In this document: positions 2,574 through 40,028 of the stretch, piece after piece
How the letters are laid out: each line of letters begins with the position of its first letter
Position numbering within the stretch: position 1 is the first letter of the stretch
From: Petrotoga sp. 9PWA.NaAc.5.4
GTDB lineage: Bacteria > Thermotogota > Thermotogae > Petrotogales > Petrotogaceae
Assembly: GCF_002895485.1 (NCBI RefSeq)
Contig: NZ_AZRK01000015.1
Coordinates: 1 to 40,028, forward strand
DNA length: 40,028 nt
Reading direction: 5' to 3'
The notes under the pieces: model-generated
What the model was told of the DNA's origin: nothing
The model's input: the letters and a program-made list of their open reading frames with translations, nothing else
The model's database searches: none
Program-made: the position numbers and the translations under genes

Positions 2574-3371
2574 CTAAAATTCCAATCCAACTATTGCTTC
2601 TGGGGTTACGGCATAAAATGTAAACGTTTCTGTAAAAAACAGTTTTACTTCTTCATCGACATGTCTAAGATAACCTAACGAAAGATCCTGTCCTAATATT
2701 AATTTGAAATCTTTACCACGTGTGGAAACAACGAATGATTGCTCTAAGTCATGTATTAATTCTATTTTTGCATTTAAAACTTCGTTAACCAATAAATTTA
2801 ACGGATAAGATAGTTGCTGACTGTAAAGTCTTTCCCAAACTTCTTTGTTTATAACAAGTGAATAAGGACCTTCGATACCATTTTCTATAAATCTTTTTTT
2901 GATATTATGTAGCGAAACAATAAAATCTCCTACATTATTTTGTGAACTTTTTATTGAATTTGATTTTGCTAATGTATACAATCCGGTAATATTTGCTTTT
3001 TCCAAACCTCTAAGGATAATATCATTTTCAAACTTAGCTATTTCCTTAGCAGCAGTTTCTAAAGGCTCTAAATTTGGTGCAATATTACCTCTTTCAATAT
3101 CATCCAAAGTCCATAATTTTAAAGTAAAAGGATTTCGAACCTCGATTAAAGGCAAAGATTTCCTTAATCCCCAACCAAAAGAATCAGCTGAACTTTCTAC
3201 TAATTCGTTTGTCCCCAAATTGTAAGAAGAATATTGCCACCCAAACGGCCCTTCAACATCAACTATTTTACGTAATTTCAAATTACTTTTCAAAATCTCT
3301 TTTGCCCTTTCATCTAACTCTTCCCACATTTTTGCTGTTAAAGGTGCTATATCTCTTTTTAAAAAGTCCAT
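2574..3371 (-). CDS. Encapsulin shell protein (family 1, HK97 fold)
   Basis: This 265-aa protein self-assembles into a hollow protein compartment that packages a cargo enzyme, here probably a ferritin-like iron oxidase. It aligns by eye along its full length with the T. maritima encapsulin: MDFLKRDIAPLT at the start, VDVEGPFGWQY, WGLRKSLPLIEVR, LWTLDDIERG, IEGPYSLVIN, DFKLILGQDLSLGY and the closing FFTETFTF. The Trp in LWTLDDIERG corresponds to the tryptophan associated with flavin binding in the T. maritima shell. The reading frame is open further upstream, but ATG 3371 is the start: it has GGAGG just before it and matches the family N-terminus. The upstream codons belong to a dispersed leader repeat. 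The cargo gene lies directly upstream on the same strand. Confidence 0.95.
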   Translation of the reverse strand: MDFLKRDIAPLTAKMWEELDERAKEILKSNLKLRKIVDVEGPFGWQYSSYNLGTNELVESSADSFGWGLRKSLPLIEVRNPFTLKLWTLDDIERGNIAPNLEPLETAAKEIAKFENDIILRGLEKANITGLYTLAKSNSIKSSQNNVGDFIVSLHNIKKRFIENGIEGPYSLVINKEVWERLYSQQLSYPLNLLVNEVLNAKIELIHDLEQSFVVSTRGKDFKLILGQDLSLGYLRHVDEEVKLFFTETFTFYAVTPEAIVGLEF

Positions 3372-3403
3372 TTTTTCGCCTCCTTTCAATTCTATACTAT
3401 TCA

Positions 3404-3561
3404 CCTTAGAAATTATAAACCTGGGTTTTATCAATATTTTAGTTTCAAATTTTTTATGAAATAACTATTTGATTTTGAACTTAATCAATCCCCTATTTTT
3501 TAACATATTAAGCCATTTTAAATTCAAAATATTATTTTCTCAAAGCTCTTAATTTCTAAGG
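3404..3561 (-). repeat. Dispersed inverted-end element, copy 1 (no hairpin core), upstream of encapsulin
   Basis: A 158-bp segment is bounded by perfect 11-bp inverted repeats: CCTTAGAAATT at 3404-3414 and AATTTCTAAGG at 3551-3561. Read on the minus strand, its last ~70 nt (ACTAAAATATTGATAAAACC and onward to TTTCTAAGGTGA) match the leader found before the second ABC exporter and the hydrolase. The middle keeps AAGCCATTTTAAATTCAAAA but lacks the two hairpins of the full unit, so it looks like a deletion form. No clear target-site duplication is visible. Confidence 0.7.
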
Positions 3562-3635
3562 TATCTAAATCCTAAGTATATTTCTTTTTGAAATACTAAA
3601 ATTATTTATTAAACCCAACCTTTACTTCTAAATAA

Positions 3636-3983
3636 CTAACCCTTTAGAGAACCTAACCCCAAATCTCCACTTTTAGATGGATCTTCATCTGTAGAATCTT
3701 TCTCAACTTGAAGTAACGGTTTCTCGGTAAATAAGTATTTTCGTAATTCTTCATCCCATCCATCCATATTTCTTCTGAGCCATTCTATAATCATTACAGC
3801 ATGTTCTATTTCCTCATCTCTGTTATGTTCTATTATTTCTTTGAGGGATGGATCCTTGGAAACAGCTGCTCTTTGATTGTACCAATCTATTGCTTCTATT
3901 TCTTCTTTTAAACTATTTAATGCATAAACATAAGAGCGATCTTTATCAGTCATTTCTTCGTAAGGTTCATGATAATCTTGCAT
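3636..3983 (-). CDS. Encapsulated ferritin-like protein (EncFtn) with C-terminal cargo-loading peptide
   Basis: This 115-aa protein is the probable encapsulin cargo. EncFtn proteins oxidise Fe(II) inside the shell for iron storage or detoxification. Two helices carry the family pattern: EEIEAIDWYNQRA (27-39) and HNRDEEIEHAVMIIEWLRRN (53-72). Glu28, Glu58 and His61, with Trp34-Tyr35, fall at the spacing of the known ferroxidase ligands E32, E62, H65 and W38-Y39 of the Rhodospirillum rubrum protein. After YLFTEKP the chain becomes a flexible acidic tail ending GDLGLGSLKG, a typical cargo-loading peptide that docks on the inner shell wall. ATG 3983 has AGGAGGG upstream. The encapsulin gene follows on the same strand after a 264-nt gap filled by a repeat element. 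Confidence 0.95.
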   Translation of the reverse strand: MQDYHEPYEEMTDKDRSYVYALNSLKEEIEAIDWYNQRAAVSKDPSLKEIIEHNRDEEIEHAVMIIEWLRRNMDGWDEELRKYLFTEKPLLQVEKDSTDEDPSKSGDLGLGSLKG

Positions 3984-4018
3984 GAATTATCCCTCCTTTT
4001 TTCGTATTTATATACTCA

Positions 4019-4480
4019 CTTTAGAAATTCTAAAAACTTTTTTAGATATATTTTATTGTTAAGTTTTTTATAAAAAACCTCCATCATTCTGATTCTTACT
4101 AACTGTCTATTTTTTAACTTTTCGGTACCTGTATCGAAGAGTAGAGAAAGGGCTCCGCCCTGAACCCACTTTAAATTCAAAAACTTATTTTTAAAAATTC
4201 ATTATTCCCAAAGTCTCTATATAATTTCTTACTAACTGTCTATTTTTTAACTTTTCGGTACCTGTATCGAAGAGTAGAGAAAGGGCTCTGCCCTGAACCC
4301 ACTTTAAATTCAAAAACTTATTTTTAAAAATTCATTATTCCCAAAGTCTCTATATAATTTCTTACTAACTGTCTATTTTTTAACTTTTCGGTACCTGTAC
4401 CGAAGAATAGAGAAAGGGCTCCGCCCTGAAACCACTTTAAATTCAAAAACTTATTTTTAAAAATTCATTATTTCTAAAAT
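4019..4480 (-). repeat. Dispersed inverted-end element, copy 2, three internal units, upstream of EncFtn
   Basis: This fills the gap between cheX and the ferritin gene. Three direct repeats of exactly 133 bp start at 4095, 4228 and 4361. The ends are CTTTAGAAATT (4019-4029) and ATTTCTAAAA (4470-4479), inverted relative to each other with one mismatch. On the minus strand each unit has two hairpins. The first is AGGGC-GGA-GCCCT or a loop variant (4415-4427 in unit 3). The second is perfect in unit 3: TTCGGTAC-ag-GTACCGAA (4387-4404). The other units keep it with G-T wobble. The end near the ferritin start is the conserved leader. Confidence 0.85.
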
Positions 4481-4531
4481 TCCCCTGTATTTATTAATAT
4501 CCTTAAAAATTTTAAAGCCTAAGCTTTATCA

Positions 4532-14376: not shown

Positions 14377-14493
14377 ATATTTAATTTACCGGCGTGTAAA
14401 AATTAAACAAATTACAAAAACTAACCCTAAAAATCATGATTTTAAACTTATAATAAGTGAAGCATAGTCTAAAATTGTTCGCTTCAATAGTGA

Positions 14494-14666
14494 CTTTAGA
14501 GATAAGATCTTTTTAAATAAACTTTTGAATTTATAACGATAAAGGAGTACAGGCCTCTACCTTTTTTCTCACTAAAAGCATCGAATATGTTAAAAGAATC
14601 GATAATTAGTGACTATTAGAACTACAAAGGTGTTTTTGAAAAAACTAAGTTTTATAATTTTTAAAG
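14494..14666 (+). repeat. Dispersed inverted-end element, copy 4, degenerate, upstream of murE
   Basis: It starts CTTTAGAGATAAGATC (14494) and keeps TTTTGAATTTATAACG and CAGGCCTCTACC from the unit core, with the hairpins eroded. Its leader (GGTGTTTTTGAAAAAACTAA, then TTTTATAATTTTTAAAG) ends at 14666, 18 nt before the murE ribosome-binding site. The rest of the hrcA-murE divergent gap (14377-14493) shows no gene and no clear murE promoter. Confidence 0.6.
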
Positions 14667-14698
14667 CGGGTATTATTCGAATTCAAGGAGGAATACTG

Positions 14699-23373: not shown

Positions 23374-23449
23374 GCCCCCATCGTCTAGCGGTCAAGGACA
23401 TTGGCCTTTCACGCCAAAGACACCAGTTCAAATCTGGTTGGGGGCGCCA
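23374..23449 (+). tRNA. tRNA-Glu (anticodon TTC)
   Basis: The cloverleaf folds with acceptor GCCCCCA/TGGGGGC, anticodon loop CCTTTCAC-type with TTC at the 34-36 position, and T arm CCAGTTCAAATCTGG. The discriminator G and an encoded CCA end at 23449. First of three tRNAs under one promoter. It is the substrate of GltX encoded in the same window. Confidence 0.95.
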
Positions 23450-23469
23450 GTTTTTATGAAGATTGGTAT

Positions 23470-23544
23470 GGGCGCTTAGCTCAGTGGGAGAGCGTCTGCC
23501 TTACAAGCAGAAGGTCGTAGGTTCAAACCCTACAGCGCCCACCA
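23470..23544 (+). tRNA. tRNA-Val (anticodon TAC)
   Basis: The acceptor GGGCGCT pairs with AGCGCCC. The anticodon stem TCTGC/GCAGA encloses CTTACAA, with anticodon TAC reading GTA/GTN codons. T arm GTAGGTTCAAACCCTAC. The discriminator A is followed by encoded CCA. It lies 20 nt after tRNA-Glu. Confidence 0.95.
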
Positions 23545-23560
23545 TATTTTAAAAACGGTA

Positions 23561-23636
<76 letters not shown>

Positions 23637-23675: not shown

Positions 23676-23824
23676 GTTTCTCATTATAAATATACAATAG
23701 CTAAGGAATTTGAGACTGCGATGTGTTATAATTAACTGGCAACAAGATAGATAAATTTAAGAAGTTAAAGTGCGTTCATATCTAAGCACTTCTCCATAAA
23801 AGTTTGGTGGGGATTAGAGTTGAG

Positions 23825-23889
23825 AAAATATTTTTGAAAAAACTAAAATTCAAAAAATATACAATTTGAGTTTTATAATTTCCAAAACA
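23825..23889 (+). repeat. Leader-only remnant of the dispersed element, upstream of the CCA/DHH fusion gene
   Basis: AATATTTTTGAAAAAACTAA and the following TTTTATAATTTCCAAAAC resemble the leader at 14630-14666, 31745-31808 and 34698-34764. No hairpin unit and no clear inverted end is present. It stands about 15 nt before the AAGGGGA site of the next gene. The rest of 23676-23918 shows nothing recognisable. Confidence 0.45.
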
Positions 23890-28894: not shown

Positions 28895-28923
28895 TTCTAT
28901 CTTCCTCCAAATTCATTAAAGAT

Positions 28924-29019
28924 GGCTGGGTTATCTACCACACCTAAGAATCCCCGCTTATGGCTGCTCCCTTCCGGGCCTGACCAGTTTCACGGGTTCT
29001 TATTGCGTAGGACCCAGCC
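28924..29019 (-). ncRNA. ffs: Signal recognition particle RNA (small bacterial 4.5S type)
   Basis: The ends GGCTGGGT and ACCCAGCC pair to close a ~96-nt hairpin. The apex reads GGTCAGGCCCGGAAGGGAGC then AGCC, the conserved domain IV with GGAA tetraloop and the asymmetric loop that binds Ffh. No Alu domain is present. The RNA partners with Ffh for co-translational membrane targeting. The 5' and 3' limits are taken from the terminal stem. Confidence 0.96.
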
Positions 29020-31077: not shown

Positions 31078-31246
31078 GTCAAATACTCCAAATATTTCCC
31101 TCGTTACACATAGCAAAGAACTTAAAAGCATTCATATTTGGTGAGAATTCGAGTTAATCATGCATTTTATATAAACCTTAAACTTAGAATATAAATAAAA
31201 CCTAAGTTTTATAATCTTTAAAGTAAACATAAAAAATAACCAGGTA

Positions 31247-31808
31247 CTTTAGAAAAGGTAATTTTCAGAAAATAAGCAGTTGAATTTATAACAGGTCCAG
31301 GGTGAAGTCCTCTCCTATATAGCTACAAGTACCAAAAAGGTTAAAAAATTAAGAATTAGTGAGAATTATGTAGAAGCTTTAGAAAAAGTAATTTTCAGAA
31401 AATAAGCAGTTGAATTTAAAATGGGTTCAAGGCGGAGCCCTCTCCCCCTTCCTTGGCTACAAGTACCCAAAGGTTAAAGAAATTAAATGTGGACTTTAGA
31501 AATGATAATTTTCTAAAAATAGAATTTTGAATTTAAAATGGGTTCAGGGCGGAGCCCTCTCCCCCTTTCTTGACTACAAGTACCAAAAGGTTAAAGAAAT
31601 TAAATGTGGACTTTAGAAACGATAATTTTCTAAAAATAGAATTTTGAATTTAAAATGGGTTCAGGGCGGAGCCCTCTCCCCTTCCTTGGCTACAAGTACC
31701 GAAAGGTTAAAGAAATTAGGAATTAGTAAAGATTAGAGCTATGGAGGTATTTTTGAAAAAATTTAAAACTAAAATATTGGCAAAACTTAGGTTTTGGAAT
31801 TTCTAAGG
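31247..31808 (+). repeat. Dispersed inverted-end element, copy 5, four internal units, upstream of exporter 2
   Basis: Units begin with CTTTAGAAA at 31247, 31377, 31494 and 31611 (periods 130, 117, 117). Units three and four are nearly identical. Each has AGGGCGGAGCCCT or a variant: the first unit has AGGGTGAAGTCCT, which keeps pairing only through G-T wobbles. CTTGGCTACAAGTACC follows. After the last unit comes the leader, ending AATTTCTAAGG at 31798-31808. Another leader fragment (about 31186-31222) precedes the array. The array fills the gap between the two exporter operons, and 31078-31185 shows nothing else. Confidence 0.88.
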
Positions 31809-31843
31809 TGAGTAAAAAAATAACAACAAGGAGGAATTCCATT

Positions 31844-34232: not shown

Positions 34233-34254
34233 AATCATCTAAAAAATCATAGCA

Positions 34255-34764
34255 CTTTAGAAATGAGAGTTTTTAAAAATTGAGCAGTTGAATTTAAAAT
34301 GGGTCCAGGGCGGAGCCCTCCACCCTCTTTGGCTACACGTAGCGAAAAACTAAAAAATTAGGAATTAGTAAGAATTAGAACTTAGAATGACTAAAAAATA
34401 AGTAGAGACTTTAGAAATGAGAGTTTTTAAAAATTGAGCAGTTGAATTTAAAATGGGTCCAGGGCGGAGCCCTCCACCTTCTTTGGCTACATGTAGCGAA
34501 AAACTAAAGAAATTAAGAATTAGTAAGAATTAGAACTTAGAATGACTAAAAAAGAAGTAGAGACTTTAGAAATGAGAGTTTTCAAAAATTGAGCATTTGA
34601 ATTTAAAATGGGTCCAGGGCGGAGCCCTCCACCTTCTTTGGCTACACGTAGCGAAAAACTAAAGAAATTAAGAATTAGTAAGAATTAGAAGTGAAGGGGT
34701 ATTTTTGAAAAAATTTAAAACTAAAATATTGGTAAAGCTTAAGTTTTAAAATTCCCAAAATGAG
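34255..34764 (+). repeat. Dispersed inverted-end element, copy 6, three internal units, upstream of hydrolase
   Basis: Units start with CTTTAGAAATGAGAGTTT at 34255, 34409 and 34564 (periods 154 and 155). Each has AGGGC-GGA-GCCCT (34461-34473 in unit 2) and a second hairpin, in unit 2 the perfect palindrome GCTACATGTAGC (34486-34497). The leader (34698-34764) ends in a worn AATTCCCAAAATGAG. It occupies almost the whole gap between the permease and the hydrolase; no separate promoter is recognisable. Confidence 0.88.
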
Positions 34765-38327: not shown

Positions 38328-38342
38328 AAAGGGGTGATTTTT

Positions 38343-40028
38343 GTGAAGAGTAAGGTCAAAAAAAGTATTTTATTTTTAATTGTTTCTTGTCTAAGTATTT
38401 TTTCTATTGCTTTTGCAATTAATGTTAGTGCTATGACTAACAATCCACCATCATGGCAAAGAATACCAGATCAAAATATAAAAGTAGGAGAAAGAGTAAG
38501 TATAAACCTATTAAATTACGCAAGTGATCCAGATGGAGAACAATTAACATTTGAAATAATCACAGGTGAAGGGAATATAAGTGGAAGTACATACACATAC
38601 AGTGGAGAATCAGAAGGAAGAGAAAGAGTAACAATAAGGGCAAAAGATACAAAGGGAGCATATACTAATACATCATTTGTAATTAATGTTAGTTCTGGAA
38701 ATCAAAGTGGTTCGCTCAAATGGAGGTATGAAACTGGCTCTGGGATTGATTTATCAAGCCCAGCGATAGGCAGTGATGGAACTATATATGTGGGATCAGT
38801 GGATAATTATCTCTATGCGATAAACCCAGATGGTTCACTCAAATGGAAGTATAAGACAGACTATTGGATTACTTCAAGCCCAGCGATAGGCAGTGATGGA
38901 ACTATATATGTGGGATCATTGGATAGTTATCTCTATACTATAAACCCGGATGGTTCACTCAAATGGAAGTATAAGACAGACGATGGGATTACTTCAAGCC
39001 CAGCGATAGGCAGTGATGGAACTATATATGTGGGATCATTGGATAGTTATCTCTATACTATAAACCCGGATGGTTCACTCCAATGGAAGTATAAGACAGA
39101 CTATTGGATTTTCTCAAGCCCAGCGATAGGCAGTGATGGAACTATATATGTGGGATCATATGATAGTTATCTCTATGCGATAAACCCAGATGGTTCACTC
39201 AAATGGAGGTATAAGACAGACTATTGGATTGCTTCAAGCCCAGCGATGGGTAGTGATGGAACTATATATGTGGGATCAGGGGATTATTATCTCTATGCGA
39301 TAAACCCAGATGGTTCACTCCAATGGAAGTATAAGACAGACGATGAGATTTCTTCAAGCCCAGCAATAGGGAGTGATGGAACTATATATGTGGGATCAGA
39401 GGATAATTATCTCTATGCAATAAACCCAAATGGTTCACTCAAATGGAAGTATAAGACAGAAGATGGGATTTCTTCAAGCCCAGTAATAGGGAGTGATGGA
39501 ACTATATATGTGGGATCAGAGGATAATTATCTCTATGCAATAAACCCAGATGGTTCACTCAAATGGAAGTATAAGACAGACGATTGGATTTCTTCAAGTC
39601 CAGCGATAGGTAGTGATGGAACTATATATGTGGGATCATATGATAGTTATCTCTATGCGATAAACCCAGATGGTTCACTCAAATGGAAGTATAAGACAGA
39701 CTATTGGATTACTTCAAGCCCAGCGATAGGCAGTGATGGAACTATATATGTGGGATCAGGGGATAGTTATCTCTATGCGATACAAGGAGAAAGTGAGGGG
39801 TTAGCAGACACATCTTGGCCAAAATTTAGAAATAACAACAGAAATACAGGTGCAATTAATGTTAGCGCTATGACTAACAATCCACCATCATGGCAAAGAA
39901 TACCAGATCAAAATATAAAAGTAGGAGAAAGAGTAAGTATAAACCTATTAAATTATGCAAGTGATCCAGATGGAGAACAATTAACATTTGAAATAATTAC
40001 AGGTGAAGGGAATATAAGTGGAAGTACA
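38343..40028 (+). CDS. Large secreted protein with Ig/cadherin-like and PQQ-like propeller repeats (3' end outside window)
   Basis: There are 562 codons to the window edge without a stop. GTG 38343 has AAGGGGTGA 6 nt upstream. Residues 1-25 are a signal peptide (cleavage after AFA). Residues 25-122 form an Ig/cadherin-like domain (PPSWQRIPDQNIKVGERVSI, DPDGEQLTFEI). Nine PQQ-like blades follow (123 to about 483): the first has 41 residues, the others 40, pattern SLKWKYKTD..I.SSPAIGSD, then GTIYVGS.D.YLYAINPDG. The tail ADTSWPKFRNNNRNTG leads into a second Ig copy at residue 504. It is probably a surface or periplasmic binding protein; ligand unknown. Confidence 0.88.
   Translation, partial: MKSKVKKSILFLIVSCLSIFSIAFAINVSAMTNNPPSWQRIPDQNIKVGERVSINLLNYASDPDGEQLTFEIITGEGNISGSTYTYSGESEGRERVTIRAKDTKGAYTNTSFVINVSSGNQSGSLKWRYETGSGIDLSSPAIGSDGTIYVGSVDNYLYAINPDGSLKWKYKTDYWITSSPAIGSDGTIYVGSLDSYLYTINPDGSLKWKYKTDDGITSSPAIGSDGTIYVGSLDSYLYTINPDGSLQWKYKTDYWIFSSPAIGSDGTIYVGSYDSYLYAINPDGSLKWRYKTDYWIASSPAMGSDGTIYVGSGDYYLYAINPDGSLQWKYKTDDEISSSPAIGSDGTIYVGSEDNYLYAINPNGSLKWKYKTEDGISSSPVIGSDGTIYVGSEDNYLYAINPDGSLKWKYKTDDWISSSPAIGSDGTIYVGSYDSYLYAINPDGSLKWKYKTDYWITSSPAIGSDGTIYVGSGDSYLYAIQGESEGLADTSWPKFRNNNRNTGAINVSAMTNNPPSWQRIPDQNIKVGERVSINLLNYASDPDGEQLTFEIITGEGNISGST
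38415..38591 (+). repeat. Ig-like module direct repeat, first copy (second copy at 39852-40028)
   Basis: 177 bp are repeated 1437 bp downstream, cut by the window edge. Only three differences are seen: AGT/AGC, TAC/TAT and ATC/ATT, all synonymous third-position changes. Both copies begin at GCAATTAATGTTAG; ATTAATGTTAG also occurs at the end of the first Ig domain (about 38683), a likely recombination joint. Confidence 0.93.
38709..39791 (+). repeat. Nine tandem ~120-bp PQQ-blade repeats
   Basis: Repeat 1 spans 38709-38831 (123 bp); repeats 2-9 start every 120 bp from 38832 to 39672. The block AGTGATGGAACTATATATGT and its surroundings is invariant in all nine. Differences cluster at a few codons. 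The near identity shows recent amplification or gene conversion. The same unit occurs once in the gene at 37544. Confidence 0.95.

Follow-up and report, generated by a model that had tools for sequence, protein, structure and literature searches.

Why should a dispersed element stand, one copy each, in front of both the shell and the cargo gene of an encapsulin pair? The question arises at a locus of Petrotoga sp. 9PWA.NaAc.5.4 (contig NZ_AZRK01000015.1), of which we analysed a stretch of 40,028 nucleotides (henceforth the window), and where a preliminary description made from the sequence alone had suggested that paired leaders might set the shell:cargo ratio. We arrive at another answer, to which we give a probability of about three in four: an ordinary encapsulin/EncFtn pair has received two copies of a MITE, which forms with an insertion sequence (IS) one family with common ends, inserted in one orientation at a site fixed relative to a Shine-Dalgarno (SD)-like motif.

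The encapsulin/EncFtn pair and its two elements

The shell protein matches Linocin_M18 of Pfam (7.8e-69) and the NCBIfam model encap_f1 (1.3e-73, above cutoff), and its nearest solved chains are those of Thermotoga maritima maritimacin/encapsulin (E ~1e-70). The cargo matches EncFtn-like of Pfam (3.2e-39) and TIGR04535 (1.6e-44, above cutoff), and its alignment with EncFtn chain 5da5 (Rru_A0973) is gap-free, query residue 4 falling on chain residue 8, so that Glu28, Glu58 and His61 of the cargo correspond to chain positions 32, 62 and 65, which we take to be the ferroxidase residues. These matches bear out the earlier description of a complete family 1 encapsulin whose EncFtn cargo keeps the ferroxidase residues and ends in a loading peptide; a GDLGLxxL tail is found here and in all eight close relatives. 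On the minus strand the gene order is cysS, cheX, EncFtn and encapsulin, with plus-strand dnaA facing the encapsulin gene (shell, cargo, cheX and dnaA were assigned by family models, cysS was named by eye; Table 1). The shell has a match in 11 of 21 genomes of the same family, eight of them besides the source being 61-66% identical, and dnaA, EncFtn and shell stay together in 8/8 close relatives, where the adjacency of shell and cargo holds as it does here. The pair is thus a complete and ordinary representative of a known system type. It shares protein families, adjacency, ferroxidase residues and loading peptide with family 1 encapsulins with EncFtn cargo (the T. maritima shell; EncFtn of R. 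rubrum and Haliangium) but differs from them in that its two genes lie 264 nt apart with a mobile element in the gap; by ORF coordinates the gap is 31 and 49 nt in two relatives.

Table 1. Coordinates of the genes, element copies and RNA genes discussed in the text.
Feature	Positions	Strand	Basis
Family 1 encapsulin shell protein, 265 aa	2574..3371	minus	Pfam, NCBIfam, solved-structure matches
AGGAGG Shine-Dalgarno of shell gene	3379..3384	minus	sequence; GGAGG at the same place in relatives
Gene-side copy of e1 target duplication (GTATAGAATT)	3388..3397	minus	sequence; 6/10 identical to partner 3568-3577
Element e1: gene-proximal L module and one R module lacking the GC-rich hairpins, 170 bp	3398..3567	minus	similarity, ends by hand
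Distal copy of e1 target duplication (ACTTAGGATT), decayed	3568..3577	minus	sequence
Encapsulated-ferritin (EncFtn) cargo protein of 115 aa, with GDLGLGSLKG as C-terminal loading peptide	3636..3983	minus	Pfam, NCBIfam, structure alignment
AGGAGG Shine-Dalgarno of cargo gene	3992..3997	minus	sequence
Gene-side copy of e2 target duplication (TATAAATACG)	4003..4012	minus	partner ~4487-4496, ATAAATAC in both
Element e2: L and three tandem R modules, 133-nt spacing, before cargo	4013..4486	minus	similarity, ends by hand
Further copy, L and one R, partly deleted	14493..14668	plus	similarity
Three consecutive tRNA genes	23374-23633		Rfam
Further copy, L module alone, 33 nt before ORF start	23800..23886	plus	similarity
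SRP RNA	28921-29019	minus	Rfam
Two tandem copies (L; then RRRR-L)	31124..31810	plus	similarity
Further copy, RRR-L, 33 nt before ORF start	34254..34761	plus	similarity

The earlier observation that each gene has its own copy of the dispersed element in front is correct, e1 standing before the shell gene and e2 before the cargo gene, and both are insertions of one nonautonomous element. A comparison with relatives had been named as a check on the proposed leader role: cargo and shell are adjacent in 8/8 close relatives, and no match to the element at E <= 10 was found between the two genes in any of the eight. This comparison demonstrates the absence of the insert between cargo and shell only, since the relatives have diverged too far between genes for exact unoccupied sites of e1 and e2 to be drawn. 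In one relative (G001, locus L069) a weak R-like match (E 0.074) between cheX and cargo might be an old element remnant before the cargo gene. Weak L-like matches lie directly upstream of cheX in both second-genus genomes (L067 3229-3287, E 0.0014; L069 147-218, E 0.007) and are possibly what is left of an old insertion, common to both genomes, close to the encapsulin genes. A frame is also open from e1 into the shell gene (3372-3434; TTG start, 286 aa), but the shell start preceded by its own AGGAGG is the more likely one.

A mobile element and its transposase-bearing partner

Read on the gene strand, the element consists of one to ten R modules and one L module, followed by the SD and the start codon. 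With one upstream module it is ~210 bp long, has the ends TAGGKACTTTAGAAAT...ATTTCTAAAGTGAGTA and is bordered by a 10-bp target duplication; single-R elements measure 158-248 bp between anchors, most of them 196-202, plus 11 terminal bases. Copies were sampled by sequence similarity, and the 421 kb of source-genome DNA fetched around the matches contain 207 L and 365 R matches. A model of the L module gives at least 151 matches in the source genome (E <= 2.1e-13 among the matches listed), and the element is therefore not a product of chance. Strong matches to the element also occur in two further genera of the same taxonomic family, with at least 24 and at least 63 matches to the L model (E <= 1e-6) in two second-genus genomes and at least 10 in four third-genus genomes; among the matches listed at this threshold, none falls in the other 14 of the 21 genomes. 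Plain DNA similarity adds two more genera, each genome of which has only one or two matches, all weak (E 2.7e-4 to 9.3e-4), and four matches to the element end plus AGGAGG occur in the MAG 'Thermotogota bacterium isolate USSF_maxbin.001'. Two sequence subtypes of the L module, TATTGRCAAAACTTAAGTTTT and TACATATAATAAGRATTTT, can be told apart (examples of L are at window 3402-3501 and 4017-4115), and a candidate small upstream ORF follows GGAGGTATTTTTG in this module.

Target duplication was probed in the 132 elements with both ends recognisable. Compared with shuffled pairings, the identity of the two flanks peaked in a single register of ten positions (z 9.8), the registers shifted by one base forming lower shoulders (z 4.6 and 4.3), and the main register gave z 6.2 in the 84 elements that are not preceded by the end of another element. 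Such a peak with weak shoulders is what a 10-bp duplication with some of 9 or 11 bp or with later indels would give, and by its register the element extends from TAGGK-ACTTTAGAAAT to ATTTCTAAAG-TGAGTA. A smaller test of 41 elements likewise gave a mean longest shared string of 7.34, against 5.23 for shuffled pairings. A homologous unoccupied site was found as well: in two third-genus genomes (G013 and G014) the element copy is flanked on both sides by AGAGTTATTT, and the corresponding stretch of G017 (L218) is element-free and has a single AGAGTTATTT followed by ATACAGGAGA (ATAC, AGGAGA). The L218 site lies within a 145-codon open frame, and behind AGGAGA in the occupied G013 and G014 copies there is no start with a frame of over 8 codons, so that at this one site the motif beside the insertion is not a working SD. 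An exact 10-bp duplication beside AGGAGA in a coding frame suggests that the DNA motif itself may be the target.

An IS with the same kind of ends is present in the source genome. On contig C2 it is ~1.62 kb long, has the ends TACCCACTTTAGAAAT / ATTTCTAAAGTGACTA and is flanked on both sides by ATATATATAA, after which follow AATT and the AGGAGG of the next gene, whose product is by eye an adenine phosphoribosyltransferase. Its 442-aa transposase has DUF772 and DDE_Tnp_1 domains, and its best NCBIfam model is IS1182 (NF033551), a likeness to that family that at 55.5 bits stays far below the cutoff of 270; from these matches, the parent element would be no closer than IS1182-related. The ~10-bp duplication and the SD-proximal site also set it apart from the IS1182 family, of which one element, ISCaa15, has 4-bp repeats according to a passage in PMC3196728. 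Its resemblance to the MITE is confined to ~17-20 terminal bases, the interior of the MITE being unlike the IS. The dispersed element is thus short, transposase-free and bounded by terminal inverted repeats, duplicates ~10 bp at sites of which a homologous unoccupied example exists, and has an autonomous partner with the same ends in its own genome (L223/L225), which are the marks of a MITE. Mobility, duplication, geometry and common ends are all shown.

Both flanks could be read in six IS copies, with direct repeats consisting of ATATATATAA (low complexity) in L225 and of 12, 8 and 6 bases in L226, L246 and L231, respectively; no clear direct repeat was found in L228 and L230. Two copies, L225 and L226, are intact, and in both the transposase frame points away from the gene. 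Relatives of the transposase (E <= 1e-20) occur in 13 of 103 genomes of the phylum, a few in each and mostly as broken copies or fragments. Taking the best end per locus, 30 relative loci (six repeating another, six without an end) yielded 18 distinct gene-side ends, a few of which may belong to neighbouring MITEs, and AGGAGG (>=5/6) lies at +18 to +22 in 16 of them and at +25 in the remaining two. Two loci from another genus with identical flanks (L233 in G007, L234 in G010) encode a 42-43% identical transposase and have a ATTTCGAAAG-type end 21 nt before AGGAGG, and the site preference may therefore predate the element.

Insertion geometry and the choice of site

The gene-side end of the element is placed with high regularity. 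In a first sample, the L end faces a start codon in 57 of 62 L-bearing elements; two face a stop, among them e1, where ORF calling had carried the shell frame on into the element, and three have no gene in the fetched piece. The larger sample comprised 197 complete L ends (the 207 matches minus seven with terminal bases missing and three too near a stretch end), of which 38 are followed by another element and 159 are non-tandem. An SD-preceded start lies within 90 nt of 142 of the 159, at 24-46 nt in all but three of these (139). Among the 157 non-tandem ends passing the filters of the AGGAGG-position analysis, 137 have AGGAGG (>=5/6) at +17 to +23 after CTAAAG (mode +20, with ties broken toward +19/+20, slightly favouring the peak). 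Within 60 nt the number rises to 146, nine of them outside this interval, and 11 of the 157 ends have no such site over that distance; shuffled flanks reach the same score anywhere in 41 of 157 cases. Measured from the L end, the SD has an interquartile range of 19-21 (sd 2.1) and the start codon one of 32-35 (sd 2.6), so the SD is the tightest anchor, its spread being just slightly below that of the start codon. When 130 elements, tandem ones included, were examined outward from both ends, AGGAGG occurred at +17 to +23 beyond the L end in 99, of which 89 also have a start codon followed by an open frame of >=50 codons, and beyond the R end in 0. The same interval holds AGGAGG in 19 of 22 distinct MITE ends from other genera. 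Random insertion of a MITE was rejected on account of this orientation and spacing.

The same geometry recurs inside the arrays, since the L module contains a GGAGG of its own. Of 120 R-R junctions examined, 56 were set aside for too little L sequence; the other 64 have recognisable L sequence before the next R, which in 55 ends exactly 4 nt before the internal GGAGG, as the rule predicts, and in nine does not fit, the 55 not being independent events because tandem duplication copies junctions. The junctions suggest that arrays may have grown via insertion into earlier copies with later loss of the second L. Whole elements also stand in tandem at a spacing of ~220 nt with a similar linker between them, for example in the source assembly (G000) at C1:197505-200246 (L093) and C1:298243-300766 (L099), where either recurrent insertions into a single site or amplification in tandem could have produced them.

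The MITE and its parent IS, which has an IS1182-related transposase, have their terminal inverted repeats in common, and integration duplicates ~10 bp at a site made of these 10 bp, about 4 nt and AGGAGG, in one orientation. We propose that this transposase would move the MITE in trans, and that the site would be chosen by reading AGGAGG in DNA, and not by transcription, translation or selection alone. Because integration takes place just before the SD, the insert joins the 5' leader and leaves SD and reading frame intact. We consider it probable that a transposase lineage evolved to recognise the SD motif in DNA as the mark beside which it inserts, at a set distance and in a set direction. 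Since many genes have this motif and insertion leaves it intact, the element would so have reached well over 100 copies in the 5' leaders of unrelated genes, with arrays arising via its own internal SD.

The target could instead be a process taking place at gene starts, be it a transcription bubble, an mRNA 5' end or an initiating ribosome, rather than the AGGAGG motif. Insertions do lie mostly at gene starts (142/159) and their orientation tracks gene direction, yet only 8 of the 16 AGGAGG motifs in the window precede an ORF start; a pure motif rule thus predicts more insertions into coding DNA than are seen, so either such insertions are lost to selection or the choice of site depends on something beyond the motif. 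The excess at gene starts can be explained by selection against gene disruption as well as by a process-based target. Against such a target, the SD spacing is somewhat tighter than that of the start codon, and insertions lie by AGGAGA without start context (one case) and by the internal GGAGG, which might, however, itself serve a small upstream ORF as its SD. We therefore hold a process-based target to be unlikely, while giving it some weight.

A choice made after insertion is harder to reconcile with these data. If elements inserted anywhere upstream of genes, selection would have to retain only sense insertions just before the SD; coding insertions are harmful, the AT-rich 5' region is tolerant, and the distributions of pneumococcal repeats are taken as shaped by selection in PMC3049150. 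Selection would, however, hardly fix either the SD distance or the orientation (99 versus 0 of 130), and the equal geometry at AGGAGA in coding-derived sequence and at the element's internal GGAGG also speaks against it, which makes this a poor explanation.

The elements as leaders, and related mobile elements

It is similarly improbable that the elements belong to the genes as regulatory leaders, kept as RNAs of a riboswitch-like or attenuator kind to control what lies behind them, and set the shell:cargo ratio. Their position mostly 5' of genes and their sense orientation would fit, and so would some structural signals: an alignment of 42 L-R units allows pairing between the ends in 95.8% of cells, in the hairpin GGGCGGAGCCC in 95.7% and in a second hairpin, with a G-C to C-G exchange, in 80.9%; both-side changes occur in 19 cells against 11.7 in shuffles (1/500 as high), and a covariation score was reached by 2/500 shuffles. 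In addition, a pattern scan of the region counts four terminator-like hairpins in e2, against an expectation of 0.4. Against a leader, terminal inverted repeats give such pairing of the ends, two other covariation measures stay within shuffles (129/500 and 406/500 as high), the counts of G-U versus A-C are mixed (18:8 in P1, 10:26 in the second hairpin), and e1 is without the hairpins. The genes behind the elements are of mixed function (20 proteins by eye, one checked against Pfam). With modest structure counts, two of five measures within shuffles and a G-U/A-C asymmetry that differs between helices, we rejected the riboswitch-like leader. Rfam at gathering scores found only tRNAs and the SRP RNA in the window, and no match to a known cis-regulatory RNA.

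A promoter inside the L module was rejected as well. A sigma-70 scan of 48 L modules gave one sense promoter-like site against a shuffle average of 9.5, and hence no excess; a sense 10-of-12 site in the R remnant of e1 (3543-3515) is within chance, the locus having three such sites against 5.1 when shuffled.

The place of the element is explained by transposition, given the 10-bp duplications, the homologous unoccupied site, a parent IS that encodes a transposase and agrees with the element in ends and position, and the one insertion geometry. On the same grounds, together with the mixed functions of the genes that follow, we find no support for the idea of a leader placed to set the shell:cargo ratio. 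What survives of the paired leaders, put forward as the new aspect of the locus, is that an element does precede both genes; the ratio-setting part is not what the data show, both elements being transposon insertions.

Transposons with safe, recurrent sites are known, such as Tn7 at glmS. Among the titles and abstract openings listed by searches of an open-access library we found neither an SD-targeting IS or MITE nor a dispersed repeat of Thermotogota. The closest architectural likeness is to the BOX elements of Streptococcus pneumoniae (boxA-boxB(n)-boxC), which are likewise MITE-like and modular, with variable inner modules and hairpins predicted if transcribed, and which are over-represented between convergent genes, according to PMC3049150. 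The element of the window differs from BOX, as described there, in its near-fixed distance before SDs and its single orientation, and the likeness drawn here is one of architecture. If the motif-directed reading is true, SD targeting would explain how a repeat comes to stand before many unrelated genes without breaking them, would make available a large natural collection of matched 5' leaders, some having and some lacking an insert, and would suggest a route to placing sequence directly 5' of reading frames. It would also be a caution that dispersed 5' elements need not mean regulons.

Elsewhere in the window, an ORF that is open at the window end (38334-40028, 565 aa shown) encodes a protein in which a 40-residue unit of the type IGSDGTIYVGS..YLYAINPDGSLKW recurs many times. 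Within the core of the array, copies of the underlying 120-nt DNA repeat are 91-95% alike, and the segment past the repeats is itself a repeat of the beginning of the protein (178 nt, 98%).
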